This document shows, in pieces, positions 54,174 to 62,620 of a DNA stretch of 64,000 nt; position 1 is the stretch's first letter, and each line of letters starts with the position of its first letter. The stretch comes from Mesorhizobium sp. SARCC-RB16n (GTDB taxonomy: Bacteria > Pseudomonadota > Alphaproteobacteria > Rhizobiales > Rhizobiaceae). The notes below the pieces were generated by a model. That model was not told the DNA's origin and made no database searches. It saw only the letters and a program-made list of their open reading frames with translations. Made by a program: the position numbers and the translations under genes. The stretch spans positions 1-64,000 of the forward strand of contig NZ_ML703262.1 of the NCBI RefSeq assembly GCF_008520305.1, read 5' to 3'.

Positions 54174-54812
54174 CTACCAACGCACGAAAAACCGCCCGCC
54201 GAGCGCACCGAGCAAGGCAAGAGCGGCGATGGCGATCGTGTACCAGGTTGCAACGAAAAGCGGCGAGTCGTCGAAGCAGTGCGCGGCATAAAAGGTCGCC
54301 GCCAGCCCGCCAGCAAGCAGCCCGGCGACCGCGCCGGCAAGAACCGGCCGTGTCGGCGCGCCATAGCGTAGCATCCACAGGAAGATGGCCAGCGGGCCGA
54401 TGCCGATCAGCGGGATGAAGCTCATGCAGATCATCATGTTCGAGCCGATCATGCGCGTGCTCCACAGCGCCTGCGGCACCATGAAGAGTTCCAGCACCAC
54501 GGCAACCGCGACCAGCAGCGGCGCGATGATCATCGCCACCATTGCCCGGCCTGTCGTCGCACCCGGCGTCGACAGGGCTCTGATCAGGGCAAAGGCGCTG
54601 ATGGCGAGCACGATGGTGAAAACGAACTTGGACAGGAAGCGTATCGTGTGTGCGGCCGCCATGAAGTCGGGGCGTGGCCCGATAGTCATCATGAAAACAA
54701 CCGCCGCGACGACGACGGCTACACCGGCCGCCAGCCACCAGGCGGAGCGCAATGGCATCGCCTTGCTGCGGGCATCGGCGTCGAGCGCCTTGATGAGATC
54801 GTCGGTCTTCAT
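54174..54812 (-). CDS. NrsF-type (DUF1109) membrane anti-sigma factor
   Basis: This 212-residue protein has six hydrophobic segments after a short cytoplasmic N-terminus (MKTDDLIKALDADA), matching the NrsF/DUF1109 family that holds an ECF sigma factor at the membrane. Two Cys residues, C129 (NMMICMSF) and C179 (YAAHCFDD), are at the places of the conserved pair shown in Caulobacter NrsF to matter for heavy-metal or oxidative signalling. It starts 1 bp after the sigma gene's stop, so the two are coupled. Confidence 0.88.
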   Translation of the reverse strand: MKTDDLIKALDADARSKAMPLRSAWWLAAGVAVVVAAVVFMMTIGPRPDFMAAAHTIRFLSKFVFTIVLAISAFALIRALSTPGATTGRAMVAMIIAPLLVAVAVVLELFMVPQALWSTRMIGSNMMICMSFIPLIGIGPLAIFLWMLRYGAPTRPVLAGAVAGLLAGGLAATFYAAHCFDDSPLFVATWYTIAIAALALLGALGGRFFVRW

Positions 54813-54813
54813 G

Positions 54814-55365
54814 TCATTCCCGTCCGAACCGCCCTTGTCCGAATCGCTTGGCTATAGCGGTAAGCCCCCGGTGCAGCGACACACGCACCGCCGTCTCGCT
54901 GATGCCGAACTTCGCCGCCGTCTCGCCGATCGAGCGTCCTTCCACGGACACGGCCGAAACCACGGAACGCTGCGCCGGCGGCAGTCCGTCGAGCGCCCGG
55001 TTGATGTCGCGTTCGCTGACCGTGTCGGTCTCCGGCTCGGCAAAAGTCTCGGCGATGTCGTCGACATCGATCTCGATGCGCCGCCCACGCCGCCGGAACG
55101 CGTCGATCAACTTGAAACGGGCAATCGCGTAGACCCAGGGCAACACCGGCGCGTCCTGACGCCAAGTGTGTCGTTTCACATGAATGGCCAGCAAGGTTTC
55201 CTGCACGACATCCTCGGGATCGACCCCGCCGTGCACGATCTTGCGCCTGACAAAGCCGCGGATCAGCGCGGCAATCCGGTGAAGAAAGTCGGCATAGGCC
55301 TTTTCATCTCCCGCGATCGCGGCCCGCATCAGCCGGGAAAGCTCGGCCTCGTCCTTGCCGCTCAC
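54814..55365 (-). CDS. ECF sigma factor, Caulobacter SigF-like
   Basis: This 183-residue extracytoplasmic-function sigma factor has region 2 at about 20-95 (VDPEDVVQETLLAIHVKRHT and PWVYAIARFKLIDAFRRRGR) and region 4 at 125-175 (LPPAQRSVVSAVSVEGRSIG, then a helix-turn-helix). Pairing with an NrsF-type protein and the promoter match place it near the SigF group. GTG start. Its first 16 codons and promoter recur as the right-hand direct repeat at 58590-58738. Confidence 0.9.
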   Translation of the reverse strand: MSGKDEAELSRLMRAAIAGDEKAYADFLHRIAALIRGFVRRKIVHGGVDPEDVVQETLLAIHVKRHTWRQDAPVLPWVYAIARFKLIDAFRRRGRRIEIDVDDIAETFAEPETDTVSERDINRALDGLPPAQRSVVSAVSVEGRSIGETAAKFGISETAVRVSLHRGLTAIAKRFGQGRFGRE

Positions 55366-55466
55366 AAGAGTTCACTCCCCGATCTTCGCGCCTCGGCACT
55401 GATTTGTTACGTGGCCGGCGAAATAATGTCCAAGGCAAAGTACCGGCAAATCACGAAAGTTTGCGG
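55318..55466. repeat. Direct repeat copy 1 (149 bp) at the sigma gene 5' end
   Basis: The copy covers the first 16 codons of the sigma gene, its leader and promoter. It matches 58590-58738 with 6 differences in 149 positions (about 96%), in the same orientation and with no gaps. Confidence 0.95.
55385..55410 (-). promoter_or_regulatory. Candidate ECF autoregulatory promoter
   Basis: On the minus strand GTAACA (55405-55410), 16 bases, then CGAA (55385-55388) agrees with the GTAAC(C)-N16-CGAA pattern reported for Caulobacter SigF. It lies 20 bp before the sigma start codon, consistent with autoregulation. In the second repeat copy the first G is changed (TTAAC). Confidence 0.65.
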
Positions 55467-55487
55467 CGGTTGCCTGCCGCCAGCGCT

Positions 55488-56534
55488 TTAGCTCCTGCGT
55501 TTTCCCACATCGGTCGATGCCTTTGCGGCCAGCACGACATCCTTGAAAAAGCTCAAGCCCTTGCGAACCGTCAGCTTCACGCGTCTTCGGCGATATTTGA
55601 TTCGCAGGCGGCCCAGAATATCCAGATGTGCCCTGTCGATGTCCGGATCAGAAACGGGATCATGCGCATATGGTAGCCGCGCCAAGGCATCTGCATGCAT
55701 GTTGGCGTAGGGCACCGAATCGTAAGTGTCGAAAACTGTGGGCGGATAATTCAACACGGTAGGGTTGGTGTTGATCTCGAACACCTGGATGCGACCGTCG
55801 ACAACGGTGTAATCAATTCGGCCGTATGAAATCCTGGCCTTCTCGAAAATCGGCACCAGCTCGGCCGCGTGCGGGTTGTCGCGAACGTAGGCTGCGTGCT
55901 CGGACAGATGCTCTCCCGTCATCGCCCTGCCTGGATCCTTTATGAACCAATCGTGACTGGCAAAACAGTGCTGTGCATAGCCGTGGTCACCTATGCGATA
56001 TGCCGCGTATTTGCGGTAACAACCGTCGCGATACGGCTTTGATCCAAATTCCACCACCATGGGACGGACAAAGCTCAAGGCGCTTAAATTGGAAAGTTCG
56101 TTGCGGAGTTCGGCAGGCGAGCGCAACAGCCGCGGAGTCTTGTAGGTAGCGCCAGCCTCATCGCGCAGGAAGACAGGAAAACGTATCTCCCCCGGTAGGC
56201 CCTCGGGTCGGTACACGTTGAAATCATTGGTGCCGTCGGCGTACAGCGTACGCAGCAGATCGAACCGCTGCAGTGTCTCTCCCGGGTGATTGAGTTGGAG
56301 CAGACCGGGTTGCCGCAATTTCATTTGCTCGCTGAGACCGGCGCTCGATTCTATCTCGAATTTACTCAGGCGATCCAAATCGGTCCAGATGGCTGTGCCG
56401 TTCGGTATTGCGAGCAGATGGACCCTATTTTCATAGGGGACAAAGCGGACAAAGTCCTGCAGGTCAGCCCGGAAATAGAGGAGCAGGCTTGCCAGGGTAT
56501 TGGCATGTGAACGATGGCAAATGTAAAAAATCAC
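55488..56534 (-). CDS. ATP-grasp-like protein, function unknown
   Basis: This is a 348-residue cytosolic protein. The ATP-grasp assignment rests on the C-terminal lobe: RISYGRIDYTVVDGRIQVFE followed by INTNPTVLNYPP near residues 240-270 has the E-x-N metal-binding arrangement, and FPVFLRDEAGATYK at about 120 resembles the ATP-clamping strand. Such enzymes join a carboxylate to an amine or thiol. The GTG start is preceded by AGGGGG. It is divergent from the GNAT-P450 pair and lies inside the direct repeats. The usual Lys/Gly loop was not clearly located, so the family call is moderate and the substrate unknown. Confidence 0.6.
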   Translation of the reverse strand: MIFYICHRSHANTLASLLLYFRADLQDFVRFVPYENRVHLLAIPNGTAIWTDLDRLSKFEIESSAGLSEQMKLRQPGLLQLNHPGETLQRFDLLRTLYADGTNDFNVYRPEGLPGEIRFPVFLRDEAGATYKTPRLLRSPAELRNELSNLSALSFVRPMVVEFGSKPYRDGCYRKYAAYRIGDHGYAQHCFASHDWFIKDPGRAMTGEHLSEHAAYVRDNPHAAELVPIFEKARISYGRIDYTVVDGRIQVFEINTNPTVLNYPPTVFDTYDSVPYANMHADALARLPYAHDPVSDPDIDRAHLDILGRLRIKYRRRRVKLTVRKGLSFFKDVVLAAKASTDVGKRRS

Positions 56535-56612
56535 GAGACACGCCCCCTATGTGCTCACTAACAGATAATGTAAAAATTCAGTTCATGGCAGACTGGTGAG
56601 CAGCACTCCACG

Positions 56613-57266
56613 ATGACAACGGTCGCATTTCGTCAACCCGTCGAACACAACATTCCAGACATGGTTGCGATGGAGACCGCAACTTGGGGGAGCCTTGGCG
56701 CCAGCGAAGAAACGATCCGGCGTCGGCTTTCAGTTGGACATACAATGATCCTGGCCATGGTTGGGAACCTTGTTGCCGGTGCTATCTGCTTCGTGGAGAC
56801 CAGCCAGGATCCTCACGATACGGAGAAGTTCCCGAAGACCTTCTCGGCCTATTCTTCGCTTGCCCGCACCGGACCGGCGCGGTCGCTCTACGTTTACAAC
56901 CTCGGTTTGCGGCCCGATTTTCGCGGCACCGACATGGCACGCCGTCTCTTGTCGCAACTGATAGGCTACGGCCATCGGGTTGGCGCCCGCTGGCTGGTCG
57001 GCGATGGACGCTGCCCGTCCTACGCCGGATCCCAAGACGATTTTCCCAACAAGGTTCGGCCGGATCTGGCGTTTCGCCAGACCATCGACGACTGGCATCG
57101 GACCGGCGTGATGCCTTCGGTCACGTCGATAACAAGGGATCCGCTATTGCGATTCTACAGGCGTGTTCTGCAATGCGAATTCCTGCATCTGGCGCCCAGT
57201 TTTCTACCGCAGGACATAAGTTCCGGCGGGTTTCGCGTCATCTTTGCCGTTGATCTCGCCCGATGA
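56613..57266 (+). CDS. GNAT-family acyltransferase, function unknown
   Basis: This is a 217-residue protein. The acetyl-CoA-binding motif A is NLGLRPDFRGTDMARRLLSQ at about 97-116, preceded by beta strands with ILAMVGNLVAGAICFVE. The stretch after motif A (DGRCPSYAGSQ, then a helical insert and RDPLLRFYRRVLQCEFLHL) is longer than in small GNATs, leaving room for a larger acceptor or acyl chain. Its stop overlaps the P450 start (ATGA), so the two are translationally coupled. Substrate unknown. Confidence 0.75.
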   Translation: MTTVAFRQPVEHNIPDMVAMETATWGSLGASEETIRRRLSVGHTMILAMVGNLVAGAICFVETSQDPHDTEKFPKTFSAYSSLARTGPARSLYVYNLGLRPDFRGTDMARRLLSQLIGYGHRVGARWLVGDGRCPSYAGSQDDFPNKVRPDLAFRQTIDDWHRTGVMPSVTSITRDPLLRFYRRVLQCEFLHLAPSFLPQDISSGGFRVIFAVDLAR

Positions 57267-58489
57267 CGGTCCAGACCGATCTTTTCGACCCTTTCGCCCT
57301 TGGCAGCGATCCCTTTCCGGAATTCGCTCACCGTCGGAAAGAGGGAGGGGGCAGTTGGGGCAAGCCTCCTTATCCGGAGGTCGGCGTCGCCTTCTACGTG
57401 TTCAGCCACGCACTCGTATCGGAAGCCTTGAAGCACCCGTTGTTGTTGCAGGCACCGCCCGGCACCTACCAAGAAGTCAGGCAGAAGATCAGCGCCAGTC
57501 CGGCATTGGATCTGTTGACCCATTCCATGCTTCTGTCCGACCCGCCGCAACACATGCGCCTGCGCCGCCCACTTGCTGGTTCCCTGACGTTTTCAGCGGG
57601 CAGAGGACTGTTCGACGGACTTATGGCAAAAGCAACGGAACTGACGTTGGCGGCTTCACGAAAGCCAAGGTTCGACGCTATTCGTGACATAGGTCTGCCG
57701 CTGTCGTTTTCAGGCCTTGAGCAACTCCTTGGCATGGATATCGATGATCCCTGGCGGATCGGAAGCGACGCCCAGCGTATGGCGAAGGCCTTGGAGATAC
57801 GGGCTGGTGGTATCGACAACGATGCCAATGAGGCCTGCCGCCGGCTGGAGGCATGGGTATCGCAAGCGATAGAACAGGGTTGCGTCCGCCCAAACGGCAT
57901 TTCGGCTCAGATGCTCGCCGAGGTCGAGGCCGGTCGCTGGCAGAGAGACGACGCCATAGCAAACATCGTTTTTCTGCTCTTTGCCGGGCAGGCGACGGTG
58001 GTCGACACGTTTGGCAACGCGCTGGTAGCGCTTGCAAGCTCGCCGGAGCAGCTGTCGTTGCTCGAAGACGGGAATGTCGACTGGTCATCTGCAACAGAAG
58101 AACTGCTCCGTTTTTGTGCGCCGGTGCACTATGCCGGAGCCCGTATTGCCTCGGGAGATCTGCGGATCGGCGGCGCGACCATACGAGCCGGACAGGCAGT
58201 CGTGCCTGTTTTGGCGAGCGCCAACCGCGATGTTTCGGTCTTTCCGGGTGGCGACCGCCTGGATCTGCGCTCCGGTGTTTCGTCGGCTCTTGCTTTCGGC
58301 ACCGGGCTTCATGCCTGTCTTGGTCAGCATGTTGCACGGGTAGAACTGGCAGTGCTGCTGGAAGCCCTTTTTACGCAGGCAAAAGGCTGGCGCCTGGATA
58401 TCCCCAAGGTCGCCAGGCGGCACTCGGTGCTCTTTTACGGTTTGGAAACAGCACCAATGATCCTGTCCGTGGACCGGCCATCAGCTTGA
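57263..58489 (+). CDS. Cytochrome P450
   Basis: This 408-residue soluble bacterial P450 has no membrane anchor. The I-helix oxygen-activation motif is FAGQATVVDTFGNAL (AGxxT), the K-helix ExxR is EELLRF, and the haem-binding loop is FGTGLHACLGQHVARVE with the Cys ligand. All are intact and the length is typical. No ferredoxin or reductase gene lies beside it, so it must use partners encoded elsewhere. Coupled to the GNAT gene; probably oxidises the product of that enzyme or of the ATP-grasp protein (inference). Confidence 0.93.
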   Translation: MTVQTDLFDPFALGSDPFPEFAHRRKEGGGSWGKPPYPEVGVAFYVFSHALVSEALKHPLLLQAPPGTYQEVRQKISASPALDLLTHSMLLSDPPQHMRLRRPLAGSLTFSAGRGLFDGLMAKATELTLAASRKPRFDAIRDIGLPLSFSGLEQLLGMDIDDPWRIGSDAQRMAKALEIRAGGIDNDANEACRRLEAWVSQAIEQGCVRPNGISAQMLAEVEAGRWQRDDAIANIVFLLFAGQATVVDTFGNALVALASSPEQLSLLEDGNVDWSSATEELLRFCAPVHYAGARIASGDLRIGGATIRAGQAVVPVLASANRDVSVFPGGDRLDLRSGVSSALAFGTGLHACLGQHVARVELAVLLEALFTQAKGWRLDIPKVARRHSVLFYGLETAPMILSVDRPSA

Positions 58490-58589
58490 GCGGCGCCCGT
58501 TCGTGCGCTTGTATCACGAGGAATTGTTGGCCCGCCGCAAGAGTTCATGCCTTAGCGACTGATTGAAGCAGGTTATAAATGTCGACTGA

Positions 58590-58738
58590 CGCGGCCCGCA
58601 TCAGCCGGGAAAGTTCGGCCTCGTCCTTGCCGCTCACAAGAGTTCACTCCCCGATCTTCGCGCCTCGGCACTGATTTGTTAAGTGGCCGGCGAAATAATG
58701 TCCAAGCCAATCTACGGGCAAATCACGAAAGTTTGCGG
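58590..58738. repeat. Direct repeat copy 2 (149 bp) with truncated sigma-factor start
   Basis: The second copy of 55318-55466 contains codons 1-16 of the sigma gene (minus strand, 58590-58637) and then breaks off, so it is a 5' remnant. Its promoter -35 is altered from GTAAC to TTAAC. The flanking 58490-58589 and 58739-58866 show no gene. Confidence 0.95.
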
Positions 58739-58866: not shown

Positions 58867-59004
58867 ATGGATTTCGTTGAACGCATTTTTGGATTTTCTC
58901 CCGACAATGGCTCGGGAACTTTCGAGGGCAGCCTTGTCAGTGCAGCCATAGTCCTTGTCGCTTTCGTCTACTTCTACAGAAGACAGAGATCACTGAAGAA
59001 ATAG
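58867..59004 (+). CDS. Small single-pass membrane protein, 45 residues
   Basis: A 45-codon frame begins with ATG preceded by GGAGGG at about 8 bases. The N-terminus MDFVERIFGFSPDNGSGTFE is amphipathic, one TM helix follows (LVSAAIVLVAFVYFY), and the C-terminus is basic (RRQRSLKK). The strong ribosome site and the codon use support a real gene. I vaguely recall short Rhizobiales proteins with a similar beginning, but know no function. Confidence 0.65.
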   Translation: MDFVERIFGFSPDNGSGTFEGSLVSAAIVLVAFVYFYRRQRSLKK

Positions 59005-59079
59005 CCTCTGGAAAATCGGCGGGGACACGTCCGCCAGGAAAACATTACCGTTGCGTCCTCTCAGCGTGGGAAACACGAC

Positions 59080-60129
59080 ATGGCAGGATCTCTGGTCAAC
59101 CACGTCAGAACCGCGGCCCTGCTGTTGTTCGCCTCCGAATTCTGGAAGCGTCTTGCCGCCGGGCTGAAGGTACTATTTGCAACGATTTGCATGCTGCTGT
59201 GCCGGCTGGCCAAGCGCCGGCGGCTGCCAAGCCCGGCGCAGAACGATTGCTGTATTCAACTGCCGCCCGACATCTACAAGCGCGCCGATCCTCTTCTCTA
59301 CGCCCAGTACTATCTGATGGCGCAGGGACTCGCGGTCACCTGGGACAATCCCGACATCGACATTTTCGACGGCGCCGCACCAGTCACCGGTGCGCTCCAG
59401 CCAGCACATACCTATCGCGTGCGTGTGCGCGTCTGGAACGGGTCCTATGATGCCCCGGCCGTCGGCGTCGGGGTGGCGCTGTCCTACCTGTCCTTCGGCG
59501 CACAGACCGTTTCCCGTCCGATCGCCAACACCGCCGTCAATCTCGGGGCCAAGGGTACGATCGATTGCCCTGCCTATGCCGAGTTCAGTTGGACCACGCC
59601 CGCCACCGGCGGCCACTACTGCCTCCAGGCACAGCTTTCCTGGGGCGATGACGCCAACCCCAGCAACAACCTTGGCCAGAAGAACGTCAACATTGCCGAG
59701 ATGCGCTCACCGGCAAGGTTCGTCTTCAGCGTCCGCAACGAGGCCTCGGTCGTCCGGCGTTTCCAGATCGAGGCGGACTGCTACGGCCTGCCGAAGCTGC
59801 GGCCATGTGCCCCGCTACGCGGCCAAGGTCGAGACGAGCGCACGGACAACCCGCAGCCGCGGCTGGCCGAGAGCAAGGCGCGCTGGGCCAGGGCCCTCGA
59901 GGAACAGGCCTATGGCCGGTTTCCCGTCCCGGACGATTGGTCGGTCAGGATCGTTCCAAGAACGCTTTCACTCCAGCCACGCCAGATCACCGAGATCACC
60001 GTCGAGATCGAACCGAGGGACGCCGCCTTCCGCGGCTCGAAGACCTTCAACGTCCATGTCTTCACGATCGGCGAAAGCGGATCACGCACCATGACCGGCG
60101 GTGTGACGCTCACCGCCACGAAAGGCTGA
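59080..60129 (+). CDS. Unrecognised membrane-anchored protein with CARDB-like beta domain
   Basis: This is a 349-residue protein. A hydrophobic N-terminal region (about 10-42, interrupted by Lys/Arg) is followed by RRRLPSPAQNDCC. A domain at about 85-200 resembles CARDB/adhesion beta-sandwiches: HTYRVRVRVWNGSYDAPAVG, then GGHYCLQAQLSWGDDANPSN. A second beta-rich part (280-349, LSLQPRQITEITVEIEPRDA) looks like another Ig-like fold. It is followed 10 bp later by the glycine-zipper protein, so they are probably one operon. No function recognised. Confidence 0.65.
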   Translation: MAGSLVNHVRTAALLLFASEFWKRLAAGLKVLFATICMLLCRLAKRRRLPSPAQNDCCIQLPPDIYKRADPLLYAQYYLMAQGLAVTWDNPDIDIFDGAAPVTGALQPAHTYRVRVRVWNGSYDAPAVGVGVALSYLSFGAQTVSRPIANTAVNLGAKGTIDCPAYAEFSWTTPATGGHYCLQAQLSWGDDANPSNNLGQKNVNIAEMRSPARFVFSVRNEASVVRRFQIEADCYGLPKLRPCAPLRGQGRDERTDNPQPRLAESKARWARALEEQAYGRFPVPDDWSVRIVPRTLSLQPRQITEITVEIEPRDAAFRGSKTFNVHVFTIGESGSRTMTGGVTLTATKG

Positions 60130-60139
60130 GGGCGCTCCG

Positions 60140-61492
60140 ATGGCCTACAAGCACTATACGAGCTGCTTTCTCTATCCGGCCGGTGGCAAGCCCTACAATG
60201 AGGACGACCGGCTGGCTTTCCTCGCCGGCCAGGCGCTGCAGATCATCGTCATCACCGGGCTGGCAGCCGTTTTCGGCTTGCTGCTGGGCCCGGTCGGTGC
60301 AGCACTTGCCGCGGCAATCGCATTTCTGGCGTCCGCCACCGCGACGATCGACAAGGCCGCCGGGGAATGGCTCAACCATCGCCTGGTCTGCCTCGACAAG
60401 GACAATCCGAAATGCGCCGTCGGCATCGTCTCCTACAATCCGTTCCGCAGCGATCTCGGTGCCTTCGACAACGACCAGTATTTCGACGTCATACTGATGC
60501 CGCATCCGACGACTGAAATCCTCAACGCCGAGACCAACGAGGCGGCTTTGGCGGCCGCCAATCGCTACAATGCCGACGGCACCGTCGTCGCCGAATACGC
60601 CGCCAACATCGCGGCCCATCCGGCGAACGACATTCTCAACGACGGCTTTCAGGGCCATGAGTTGCTGTTGCCGCGCGATGACCTGAAGACGGACCTGGGC
60701 TACGCAACCGCCGACGATCATGCCCGCTGGGGCCTGCACTGCGAGGCCGAGGGCGACTTCTGGATCAAGATGCGGCAATGGGCGCCGGCCATCGTCATCT
60801 TGCTGACGGCGGCCCTGGTCGTCACGGCGGCCGCGGCGGCCGCCGGCGCCAGTATCGGGGCGGCTGTCGGCTGCGCCATAGGTTCGTTCTTCCTGGGCGC
60901 GCTGGGCTGCGCCATCGGCTCGTTCCTGGGAGGATTGCTCGGAGCGGCTATTGGCGGCGCCATCGGCGGAGCGGCGTCCTACTTCGGCGGAGTCAAGCCG
61001 GTACTACAAGGGTTGTTCAACTGGAACCCCGGCAATGTCGAGGACGCCAATGTCGGCGACAAGGCGCTCGGCCCCATCAGGATGGGCGATCATGTGGCAG
61101 TCCTCGGCGAACATGTCTATGACGGCTATCACAAGGGCTGGCACGAGTTTCATCCGCTGATGGCGGTGGTCAAATTCGATGCAGCCGCCGGTGTCGACGC
61201 AAAACACTATCTTCTGTGGAGTCCGGACTTTTCCGACACGGGCACGATCCCGCCCAAACCGCCGGGCGAGGCCACCGACCTCACCGCGCAGGATATGCGT
61301 GACGGGCTCGGCAGCGCCGCGTTCAGGACACGCTGCGAAAATCTGCGCAGAACCTGGTGCGCCATGCTGAACGAAGCATTCGATCCGGAGACCAAACGAA
61401 CACAACAGGGGCTGGATCAGCGCTGGACCATTCATCCGATGATCGATGGTTGCATCCCGCAGGAGCAGCCACCAGCACCGCATATCGGGTGA
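60140..61492 (+). CDS. Unrecognised protein with glycine-zipper membrane repeats
   Basis: This is a 450-residue protein. A first hydrophobic stretch lies at about 31-70 (ALQIIVITGLAAVFGLLLGP). A soluble segment (75-210) follows, then a long hydrophobic region at about 212-285. That region contains three consecutive 12-residue units beginning at residue 244: GCAIGSFFLGAL, GCAIGSFLGGLL and GAAIGGAIGGAA. Such GxxxG zippers pack helices in membranes and occur in pore-forming or channel-like proteins. The C-terminal 160 residues are soluble with several Cys and Trp. No family recognised. Confidence 0.65.
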   Translation: MAYKHYTSCFLYPAGGKPYNEDDRLAFLAGQALQIIVITGLAAVFGLLLGPVGAALAAAIAFLASATATIDKAAGEWLNHRLVCLDKDNPKCAVGIVSYNPFRSDLGAFDNDQYFDVILMPHPTTEILNAETNEAALAAANRYNADGTVVAEYAANIAAHPANDILNDGFQGHELLLPRDDLKTDLGYATADDHARWGLHCEAEGDFWIKMRQWAPAIVILLTAALVVTAAAAAAGASIGAAVGCAIGSFFLGALGCAIGSFLGGLLGAAIGGAIGGAASYFGGVKPVLQGLFNWNPGNVEDANVGDKALGPIRMGDHVAVLGEHVYDGYHKGWHEFHPLMAVVKFDAAAGVDAKHYLLWSPDFSDTGTIPPKPPGEATDLTAQDMRDGLGSAAFRTRCENLRRTWCAMLNEAFDPETKRTQQGLDQRWTIHPMIDGCIPQEQPPAPHIG

Positions 61493-61612: not shown

Positions 61613-62620
61613 ATGAAATCCCCCTTTCTTGCCCTGGCCAGCGTAGCGGCGCTCGCAATCAGTCTGGCCGCCGGTCCGGCGACGGCCGAGGATGCCGGCA
61701 TCATCGTCTATAACGCCCAGCATGAAAGCCTGGCCAAGGAATGGGCCGAAGGGTTCACCAGGGACACCGGCATCAAGGTCACCTTGCGCAATGGTGGCGA
61801 CAGCGACTTCTCCAACCAGATCGTCGCCGAAGGCGCCTCCTCACCCGCCGACGTGTTTCTGACGGAAAATTCGCCGGCCATGGTGCTGGTCGAGAATGCC
61901 GGCCTGTTCGCGCCGGTCGACGCAGACACGCTGGCGCAGGTCCCGCGGGATTATCAGGCAGCCAGCGCCAAATGGGTGGGCGTGGCCGCGCGCAGCACCG
62001 TTTTTGCCTACAACACGACCAAGCTCAAGGCCGACCAGTTGCCCAAGTCGATGCTTGATCTCGCCGACCCCAGCTGGAAGGGCCGCTGGGCGGCTTCGCC
62101 TTCCGGCGCCGATTTCCAGGCCATCGTCAGCGCGCTGCTGCAGCTCAAGGGCGAGGCCGCCACGGCCGATTGGCTGAAGGCAATGAAGGAGAACTTCACC
62201 GCCTACAAGGGCAACAGCACGGTGATGAAGGCGGTCAATGCCGGCGAGATCGAAGGCGGCTTGATCTACCACTATTACTACTTTGGCGATCAGGCCAAGA
62301 CCGGCGAAAACTCCAAGAACGTTGCTCTGCACTATTTCAAGAACCAAGACCCGGGCGCTTTCGTATCGGTCTCCGGTGGCGGCGTGCTGGCCTCGAGCAA
62401 GCATCCCAAGGAAGCTCAGGCCTTCCTGAAGTGGGTGACCGGCAAGGGCGGCCAGGAAATCTTGAAGAACGGAACCTCCTTCGAATACGCGGTCGGCAAG
62501 GGCGCGGACTCCAATCCGAAGCTGGTGCCGCTGGCCGACCTGCAGGCGCCGAAGGTTGACGCCACGACGCTGAACTCCAAGAAGGTCACCGACCTGATGA
62601 CGGCAGCCGGCTTGCTTTAG
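61613..62620 (+). CDS. Iron(III) ABC transporter periplasmic binding protein (FbpA/AfuA type)
   Basis: This 335-residue exported protein has a signal peptide (LALASVAALAISLAAGPATA) ending near residue 25. The mature part starts GIIVYNAQHESLAKEWAEGF, the typical opening of FbpA-like proteins. IYHYYYFGDQAKTGENSKNV carries the tandem tyrosines that bind ferric iron. GAFVSVSGGGVLASSKHPKE closes the family pattern. GAGGAG precedes the ATG. Its permease gene follows the terminator. Confidence 0.92.
   Translation: MKSPFLALASVAALAISLAAGPATAEDAGIIVYNAQHESLAKEWAEGFTRDTGIKVTLRNGGDSDFSNQIVAEGASSPADVFLTENSPAMVLVENAGLFAPVDADTLAQVPRDYQAASAKWVGVAARSTVFAYNTTKLKADQLPKSMLDLADPSWKGRWAASPSGADFQAIVSALLQLKGEAATADWLKAMKENFTAYKGNSTVMKAVNAGEIEGGLIYHYYYFGDQAKTGENSKNVALHYFKNQDPGAFVSVSGGGVLASSKHPKEAQAFLKWVTGKGGQEILKNGTSFEYAVGKGADSNPKLVPLADLQAPKVDATTLNSKKVTDLMTAAGLL

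Follow-up and report, generated by a model that had tools for sequence, protein, structure and literature searches.

A cassette stacked beside a resident one in the sigF-fbpA slot of Mesorhizobium suggests homology-anchored insertion without an integrase

Mesorhizobium sp. SARCC-RB16n (RefSeq assembly GCF_008520305.1, contig NZ_ML703262.1, positions 1 to 64,000 of the forward strand; this whole stretch of 64,000 nucleotides is called the window throughout) carries two gene cassettes, here termed A and B, side by side between the sigma factor gene sigF and a solute-binding protein gene that we name fbpA. At the locus, nrsF and sigF are followed by cassette A, by what remains of the fbpA promoter region, by a stub of sigF, and then by cassette B and fbpA. 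Compared with 80 relatives, only the window has A and B together, and we consider it likely that the arrangement arose by one homology-anchored, integrase-free insertion of A beside B. According to this proposal, the ancestor of the window would have carried cassette B. A relative with cassette A would have donated a fragment that began in the sigF promoter region, spanned cassette A and ended in the fbpA promoter region, and this fragment would have paired with the 5' region of the resident sigF. Homologous crossover would have taken place most likely between positions 81 and 118 of a repeated sequence described below, and at its far end the fragment would have been linked to codon 16 of the resident sigF with no homology of use between them. 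The expected outcome is A stacked on B, sigF being intact ahead of A and the two cassettes being separated by a sigF stub of 149 bp. The fragment may have entered as a circle via one crossover or as a linear piece with one illegitimate end, an integrase being unneeded for such entry, and recombination between the two copies of the repeat would be predicted to remove A, thereby restoring the B arrangement of the relatives.

The stub is the second copy of a pair of direct repeats on the same strand (55318-55466 and 58590-58738), each 149 nt long and differing from one another by six mismatches (96% identity). Copy 1 spans sigF codons 1-16 and the upstream region with the sigF promoter, copy 2 is without the sigF body, and sigF itself (54814-55365, minus strand) is intact. 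The repeats bound exactly three genes (55488-56534, 56613-57266 and 57263-58489). In all these respects the original prediction, which had been made from the letters of the window and had described a three-gene cassette enclosed by two direct repeats of about 96% identity, one holding the first 16 codons and the promoter of an unbroken sigma gene and the other a truncated remnant, proved accurate. A third copy was not found in the 64-kb window, where the next best match is 24 nt long (E 0.09).

To place the repeat pair among relatives, we used a scan of one genome per species with the sigma factor, which gave 170 relatives, of which the best 80 loci were kept (L-numbered below); nearly all of these carry the name Mesorhizobium. 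The repeat sequence is single-copy and lies at sigF in 80/80 loci, with a partial match of only ~72% in L077 and L080, and fbpA is present beyond the slot in 78 of the 80, not being found in the same two loci. We observed cassette A in seven loci (L014, L019, L020, L051, L052, L055 and L075), cassette B in six (L001, L002, L011, L024, L049 and L053), a third cassette of ~6 kb, C, in six (L035, L039, L040, L041, L043 and L061) and a short sigF-fbpA gap in 59, including two with remnants of cassette B; two of the three cassettes in one slot were seen in none of the 78 loci. The sigF-fbpA gap is therefore a multi-allele cassette slot, which is empty or holds one of three cassettes depending on the Mesorhizobium lineage. 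Cassette C shows an identical set of five searched genes in 6/6 loci, encoding a three-gene NMT1-like ATP-binding cassette transporter, an arginase-family enzyme and a HupE/UreJ-like protein. The original prediction had named an empty site, with one 149-bp copy joining sigF straight to the 45-codon open reading frame that begins cassette B, as the finding to look for, and this is the arrangement of 6/80 loci; it had also named two findings that would speak against insertion, both repeats in all relatives and dispersal of the repeat over many unrelated sites, and neither was encountered, as two copies occur in 0/80 loci and a search of 146 genus genomes, scoring up to five candidates per genome, gave one match in 134, none in 12 and two in 0.

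The same 146 genomes show that the cassette A trio is not a unique import, because other species have it on its own at this very site: an ATP-grasp protein of the cassette A subfamily (58-78% identity) occurs in nine of them, in all nine beside sigF-nrsF. The 349-aa protein of cassette B occurs at 85-94% identity in nine other genus genomes, each time less than 500 bp from a repeat match, and a 43-45% relative of it is found in 11 further ones, including the A genome G004; none of the 146 has both the A ATP-grasp (58-78%) and the B 349-aa protein (85-94%). Two short-gap loci retain parts of B: in L007 and L027 the right end of B still adjoins fbpA with the B genes gone, and L027 keeps the left end of B too, for which reason both are read as B remnants. 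Longer short gaps (259-341 bp) were counted in 18 loci by script and in 19 with L003, which was assigned by eye. We considered these as scars of a lost A but do not put that reading forward: L017 matches the A tail over 75 bp and the other listed loci match only the fbpA-proximal 33-40 bp of the tail, which may equally be ancestral sequence.

These distributions also bear on the idea of a dedicated mobile element with 149-bp ends, its integrase or transposase being encoded elsewhere. Direct repeats do bound the cassette, and nine of nine A cassettes (at least 58% identity) lie at one site, as such an element might leave them. Against it, all seven fetched A-only loci have a single repeat copy, at sigF, and thus no end pair of the attachment type; the repeat is nothing but normal sigF sequence, present whether a locus holds A, B, C or a short gap; and the GNAT protein of cassette A has no match in a plasmid collection. 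We regard a dedicated element as highly improbable. The absence of an integrase or transposase, claimed in the original prediction, holds in that none was recognised among the window proteins scanned, part of the window's open reading frames being left unscanned; none was recognised in the slot either, among the scanned A and B proteins of the window and the five C proteins of L041. Of the routes that the prediction had offered, integration of a circle or unequal recombination, insertion as such is supported by the B-only relatives. The repeat is a duplicated piece of the neighbouring sigF and no attachment site, so nothing suggests a dedicated circular element.

The limits of the inserted segment could be read from alignments to the two kinds of locus. 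Homology of the window to A loci is unbroken from the sigF side to position 58587 in four of the seven (L014, L019, L020 and L075), and for the three more distant A loci the alignment stops earlier, at 58489, 58461 and 58398. With each of the six B loci, homology restarts exactly at 58590 and continues into fbpA. The right end of cassette A (58490-58589) thus stops inside a relic of the fbpA promoter region, and the A end at 58587 falls in a conserved box upstream of fbpA, which reads AATGTTGACT in 7/7 A loci versus AATGTCGACT in the window. The joint (58588-58590), where A-type DNA meets codon 16 of a sigF in B background, shares at most ~1 bp with the sources compared and is therefore non-homologous. 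Its 601-bp junction region had no match in the plasmid collection, and when the joint was sought in 394 drawn family genomes, nine genomes had a match, always within the repeat part and never across the joint. Among 397 genomes drawn from the order, none matched the GNAT protein at E 1e-20; this draw is without a known A carrier and shows little.

Both promoters left behind at the joint are altered. The fbpA relic box reads TCGACT in the window versus TTGACT in 7/7 A loci, the latter presumably being a sigma-70 -35 element. A SigF-type promoter, GTAACA-N15/16-CGAA, is present in 80/80 loci and in copy 1, and copy 2 alone of these 82 sequences is without it (GTAAC changed to TTAAC). This motif is in line with GTAACC-N16-CGAA, the SigF site of Caulobacter (PMC3511200), and with promoter sequences given for RpoE7, a relative in Sinorhizobium (PMC6180224). 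Were it active, the copy 2 promoter would be directed backwards into the cassette A P450 gene at its 3' end, and judged by their sequence the changes in this promoter and in the fbpA relic box are consistent with loss of function. Because both changes are absent from the sources compared, they also argue against a recent assembly error. An assembly artefact fusing two strains is in keeping with the failure to find a second record of the joint. It sits poorly with the relic changes just described, with the position of the joint at non-homologous sequence and not at a shared repeat, and with flanks that both group with B loci from a single clade, and we hold such a fusion to be distinctly unlikely.

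That placement of the flanks comes from two quick trees, and it gives the event a direction. The nrsF-sigF tree unites the window with three B loci, L001, L002 and L011, at full support (SH-like approximate likelihood-ratio test 100). In the fbpA tree, four B loci and one B remnant form a group of six together with the window (support 95). As both flanks place the window with B loci, cassette A would by parsimony be the newcomer. Beyond the window, slot turnover exceeds vertical descent, as seen in change counts on the trees and in cassette and flank distances that disagree both ways. Cassette A requires six changes for seven rows on the nrsF-sigF tree and seven on the fbpA tree. Between L051 and L055, 85/387 fourfold sites differ in the flanks and 199/306 in cassette A; between L020 and L075 the counts are 43/407 and 21/508; in the other pairs the cassette is more different than the flanks, and since gene rates differ, only the extreme pairs count. 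These sequence comparisons point to repeated replacement of cassette A at one site.

The two copies of the repeat record more of the event in their alleles, which we compared against the 80 loci (positions 12-127 are counted within the 149 bp). At sites 12, 44, 67, 74 and 81 both copies read TCCCA, a combination shared by just four of the 80 loci (L001, L002, L011 and the B remnant L027) and by none of the seven A loci. At sites 118, 122, 123 and 127, copy 1 reads GAGC, with an exact match only in L022, and copy 2 reads CTCG, with an exact match only in L027. Copy 1 is resident-like on the sigF side and differs from all six B loci at 118 and 123, so that its alleles switch from B-lineage to non-B between 81 and 118, the right part occurring in no sampled A locus. 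Within positions 82-117 the copies differ at 93 only, and a crossover, if there was one, therefore falls there. In a reciprocal mosaic comparison copy 1 fits a resident-donor pattern, and copy 2 is resident-like at 12, 44, 67, 74 and 81 and not at 25.

The same alleles help to weigh the reverse history, namely an old A+B tandem from which the B-only relatives would have descended by losing A through a deletion between the repeats. Such a deletion would yield exactly the B arrangement, and the B remnants in L007 and L027 attest that losses happen at the site. G at 118 or 123 is nevertheless found in 0/6 B loci, though a crossover further left would erase both, and several independent losses would be required, with the tandem itself present in 0/146 genus genomes. 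We judge an old tandem unlikely.

Several observations nonetheless weigh against a single insertion of A beside B in the window lineage. The joint is known from one assembled sequence. Gain of A in this lineage rests on parsimony with three sister loci, and the same picture would arise, at the cost of one event more, had A been the older resident and B re-entered later. The right part of copy 1 is atypical of A: G at 118 is found in 0/7 A loci, the sole exact match to GAGC, L022, has a short gap, and the best A locus, L019, matches 3/4 sites. This part may come from an unsampled donor or may be in part new mutation, so that the place of the crossover is not firm. Finally, copy 2 has T at position 25, as do 15/80 loci, three A loci among them and 0/6 B loci, which hints mildly at donor DNA in copy 2.

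Position 25 also bears on how the A fragment would have entered, and here circle and linear entry are hard to separate. In a linear route, a form of homology-facilitated illegitimate recombination, homologous crossover would have occurred in copy 1, with the other end joined directly to the resident sigF at codon 16. This predicts B-lineage combinations on both sides of copy 2 and non-B alleles only on the cassette side of copy 1, as found, and it agrees with a joint sharing at most ~1 bp with the sources compared; we see it as a real possibility, a little short of an even chance. The T at position 25 speaks against a copy 2 that is wholly resident, and linear entry generally leaves a deletion, not a duplication (PMC3240628). 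In a circle route, a trimmed donor fragment would have been closed, with the A tail joined to the truncated 5' end of sigF, and taken up by one crossover in the 149 bp. A direct repeat of shared sequence on both sides of the insert is what this would leave, and copy 2 position 25 T fits donor DNA. There is a precedent in E. coli conjugation, where a duplication-diagnostic polymerase chain reaction product was obtained in 56/60 clones and 14 sequenced integrants had duplications of 109-950 bp, ascribed to circles with partly lost homology (PMC3240628), a range that includes the 149 bp seen here. After a plain single crossover, however, the left part of copy 2 should be of donor type, yet that part reads TCCCA, a combination in 0/7 A loci, so that mismatch correction or a donor with the same TCCCA combination would be needed; entry as a circle appears possible but somewhat doubtful. 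Ku genes, which fit the closure of such a circle and could serve end joining at the joint, are present in 5/5 relatives tested, and one of 14 control genomes was positive.

Cassette A consists of an ATP-grasp-like ligase gene (55488-56534, minus strand), whose orthologues occupy the same slot, a GNAT-like acyltransferase gene (56613-57266, plus strand) and a cytochrome P450 gene (57263-58489, plus strand). The three gene names of the original prediction fared unequally. P450 is confirmed by Pfam (p450, 8.2e-13) and by solved relatives; for the other two proteins neither Pfam nor NCBIfam yielded a family at the curated cut-off, and the names come from fold matches only. AlphaFold models of genes 1 and 2, built from eight orthologues each, reached a mean predicted local distance difference test score of 62 and 75, respectively, which is moderate confidence. 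The gene 1 model matches D-Ala-D-Ala ligase-type ATP-grasp enzymes (top E 7.6e-08, with a template modelling (TM) score of just 0.36 over the query), and the gene 2 model matches GNAT folds, best of all the GNAT loading domain of CurA (E 2.4e-09, TM-score 0.62). These models make the names ATP-grasp and GNAT reasonable but not proven. An acidic residue usually precedes the conserved threonine of the P450 I-helix. In the cassette A P450 alanine takes that position, residues 241-245 being AGQAT in 8/8 aligned orthologues, and the heme-cysteine motif FGTGLHxCLGQ is intact. The set of ligase, acyltransferase and P450 would suggest a small amide-type metabolite as the product. The trio is not described in the part of PMC2922099 available to us, a limited literature search that cannot show the slot to be unpublished. 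A related trio (ATP-grasp 48-51% identity; L090-L095) occurs in six of the 146 genus genomes; sigF or nrsF was not detected on the short stretches fetched for it, and its neighbours pointed to no pathway. In L131 the gene after the P450 gives a glycosyltransferase match below the Pfam cut-off, and the protein at that place in L133 starts similarly by eye.

The cassette is AT-richer than its surroundings, as the original prediction had judged by eye: its guanine-plus-cytosine (GC) content is 0.578, versus a mean of 0.632 across 305 overlapping window stretches of the same length, five of which are as low. The seven other A slots have a GC content of 0.565-0.603 in surroundings of 0.635-0.651, and because the low value recurs there, AT-richness is a trait of cassette A.

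On the left, the slot is flanked by nrsF (54174-54812, minus strand), an anti-sigma gene, and by sigF, an extracytoplasmic function sigma factor gene on the same strand (Pfam Sigma70_r2/r4; 98% identity to L001); the Pfam NrsF match (E 1.5e-54), NrsF standing for negative regulator of sigma F, is the reason why the pair is named sigF-nrsF. Cassette B (58867-61492) comprises, all on the plus strand, the 45-codon open reading frame (58867-59004) and, recognised by locus comparison, the genes for the 349-aa protein (59080-60129) and for a 450-aa protein (60140-61492). The last of these gave no Pfam family above the cut-off and has by eye a long Gly/Ala-rich, membrane-like stretch. The right flank is fbpA (61613-62620, plus strand; Pfam SBP_bac_1 and SBP_bac_6). 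No PADLOC defence family was found among the six A and B proteins.

Among known systems, the slot resembles integrase-free transfer hotspots, whose contents are exchanged by recombination in the flanking core genes (PMC5635113): several unrelated contents (A, B, C or a short gap) lie between conserved sigF and fbpA in 78/80 loci, are scattered on the tree and come with no recognised mobility gene. Those hotspots are filled by double recombination at the flanks, whereas in the window A appears to have been added beside B with a duplicated flank. The window is like the E. coli single-crossover integrants (PMC3240628) in that a piece of homology is duplicated beside the insert without an integrase, and unlike them, apart from their laboratory plasmid substrate, in that copy 2 is resident-like at most diagnostic sites. 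With homology-facilitated illegitimate recombination (PMC3240628, PMC2884548) it shares a non-homologous joint at one end and, probably, a homologous crossover at the other; that process generally couples insertion to deletion, whereas here 149 bp are duplicated and cassette B is complete, and since no resident DNA is deleted at the joint, we do not class the event with it. The effector-immunity arrays of Vibrio cholerae, for which growth by one-sided insertion has been proposed (PMC5361080), offer a further parallel, as each incoming module is inserted next to a conserved anchor upstream, older genes are pushed downstream and stacks form. In Vibrio, a different organism with other genes, the old effector is displaced and the immunity genes stay, whereas cassette B is whole. 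A broader generalization, which we put forward tentatively and with considerable doubt, is that the sigF-fbpA gap serves Mesorhizobium as a standing, integrase-free slot, in which whole cassettes replace one another time and again and in which an end-joined fragment with its anchor on the sigma factor promoter can stack one cassette upon another in a single step, so that integron-like arrays would form solely through general recombination plus end-joining. For many bacterial accessory genes the mechanism by which hotspots are filled is inferred from statistics. At the present locus one event can be read near base level, from the resident allele, the source type and the joint to the likely crossover region and the changed leftovers, and it indicates that exchange at a slot can add a cassette rather than replace the resident one and that bacteria may gain genes without an integrase. 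The window is thus an unusually legible member of the type of hotspot that lacks recognisable mobility genes, with an outcome that is additive.

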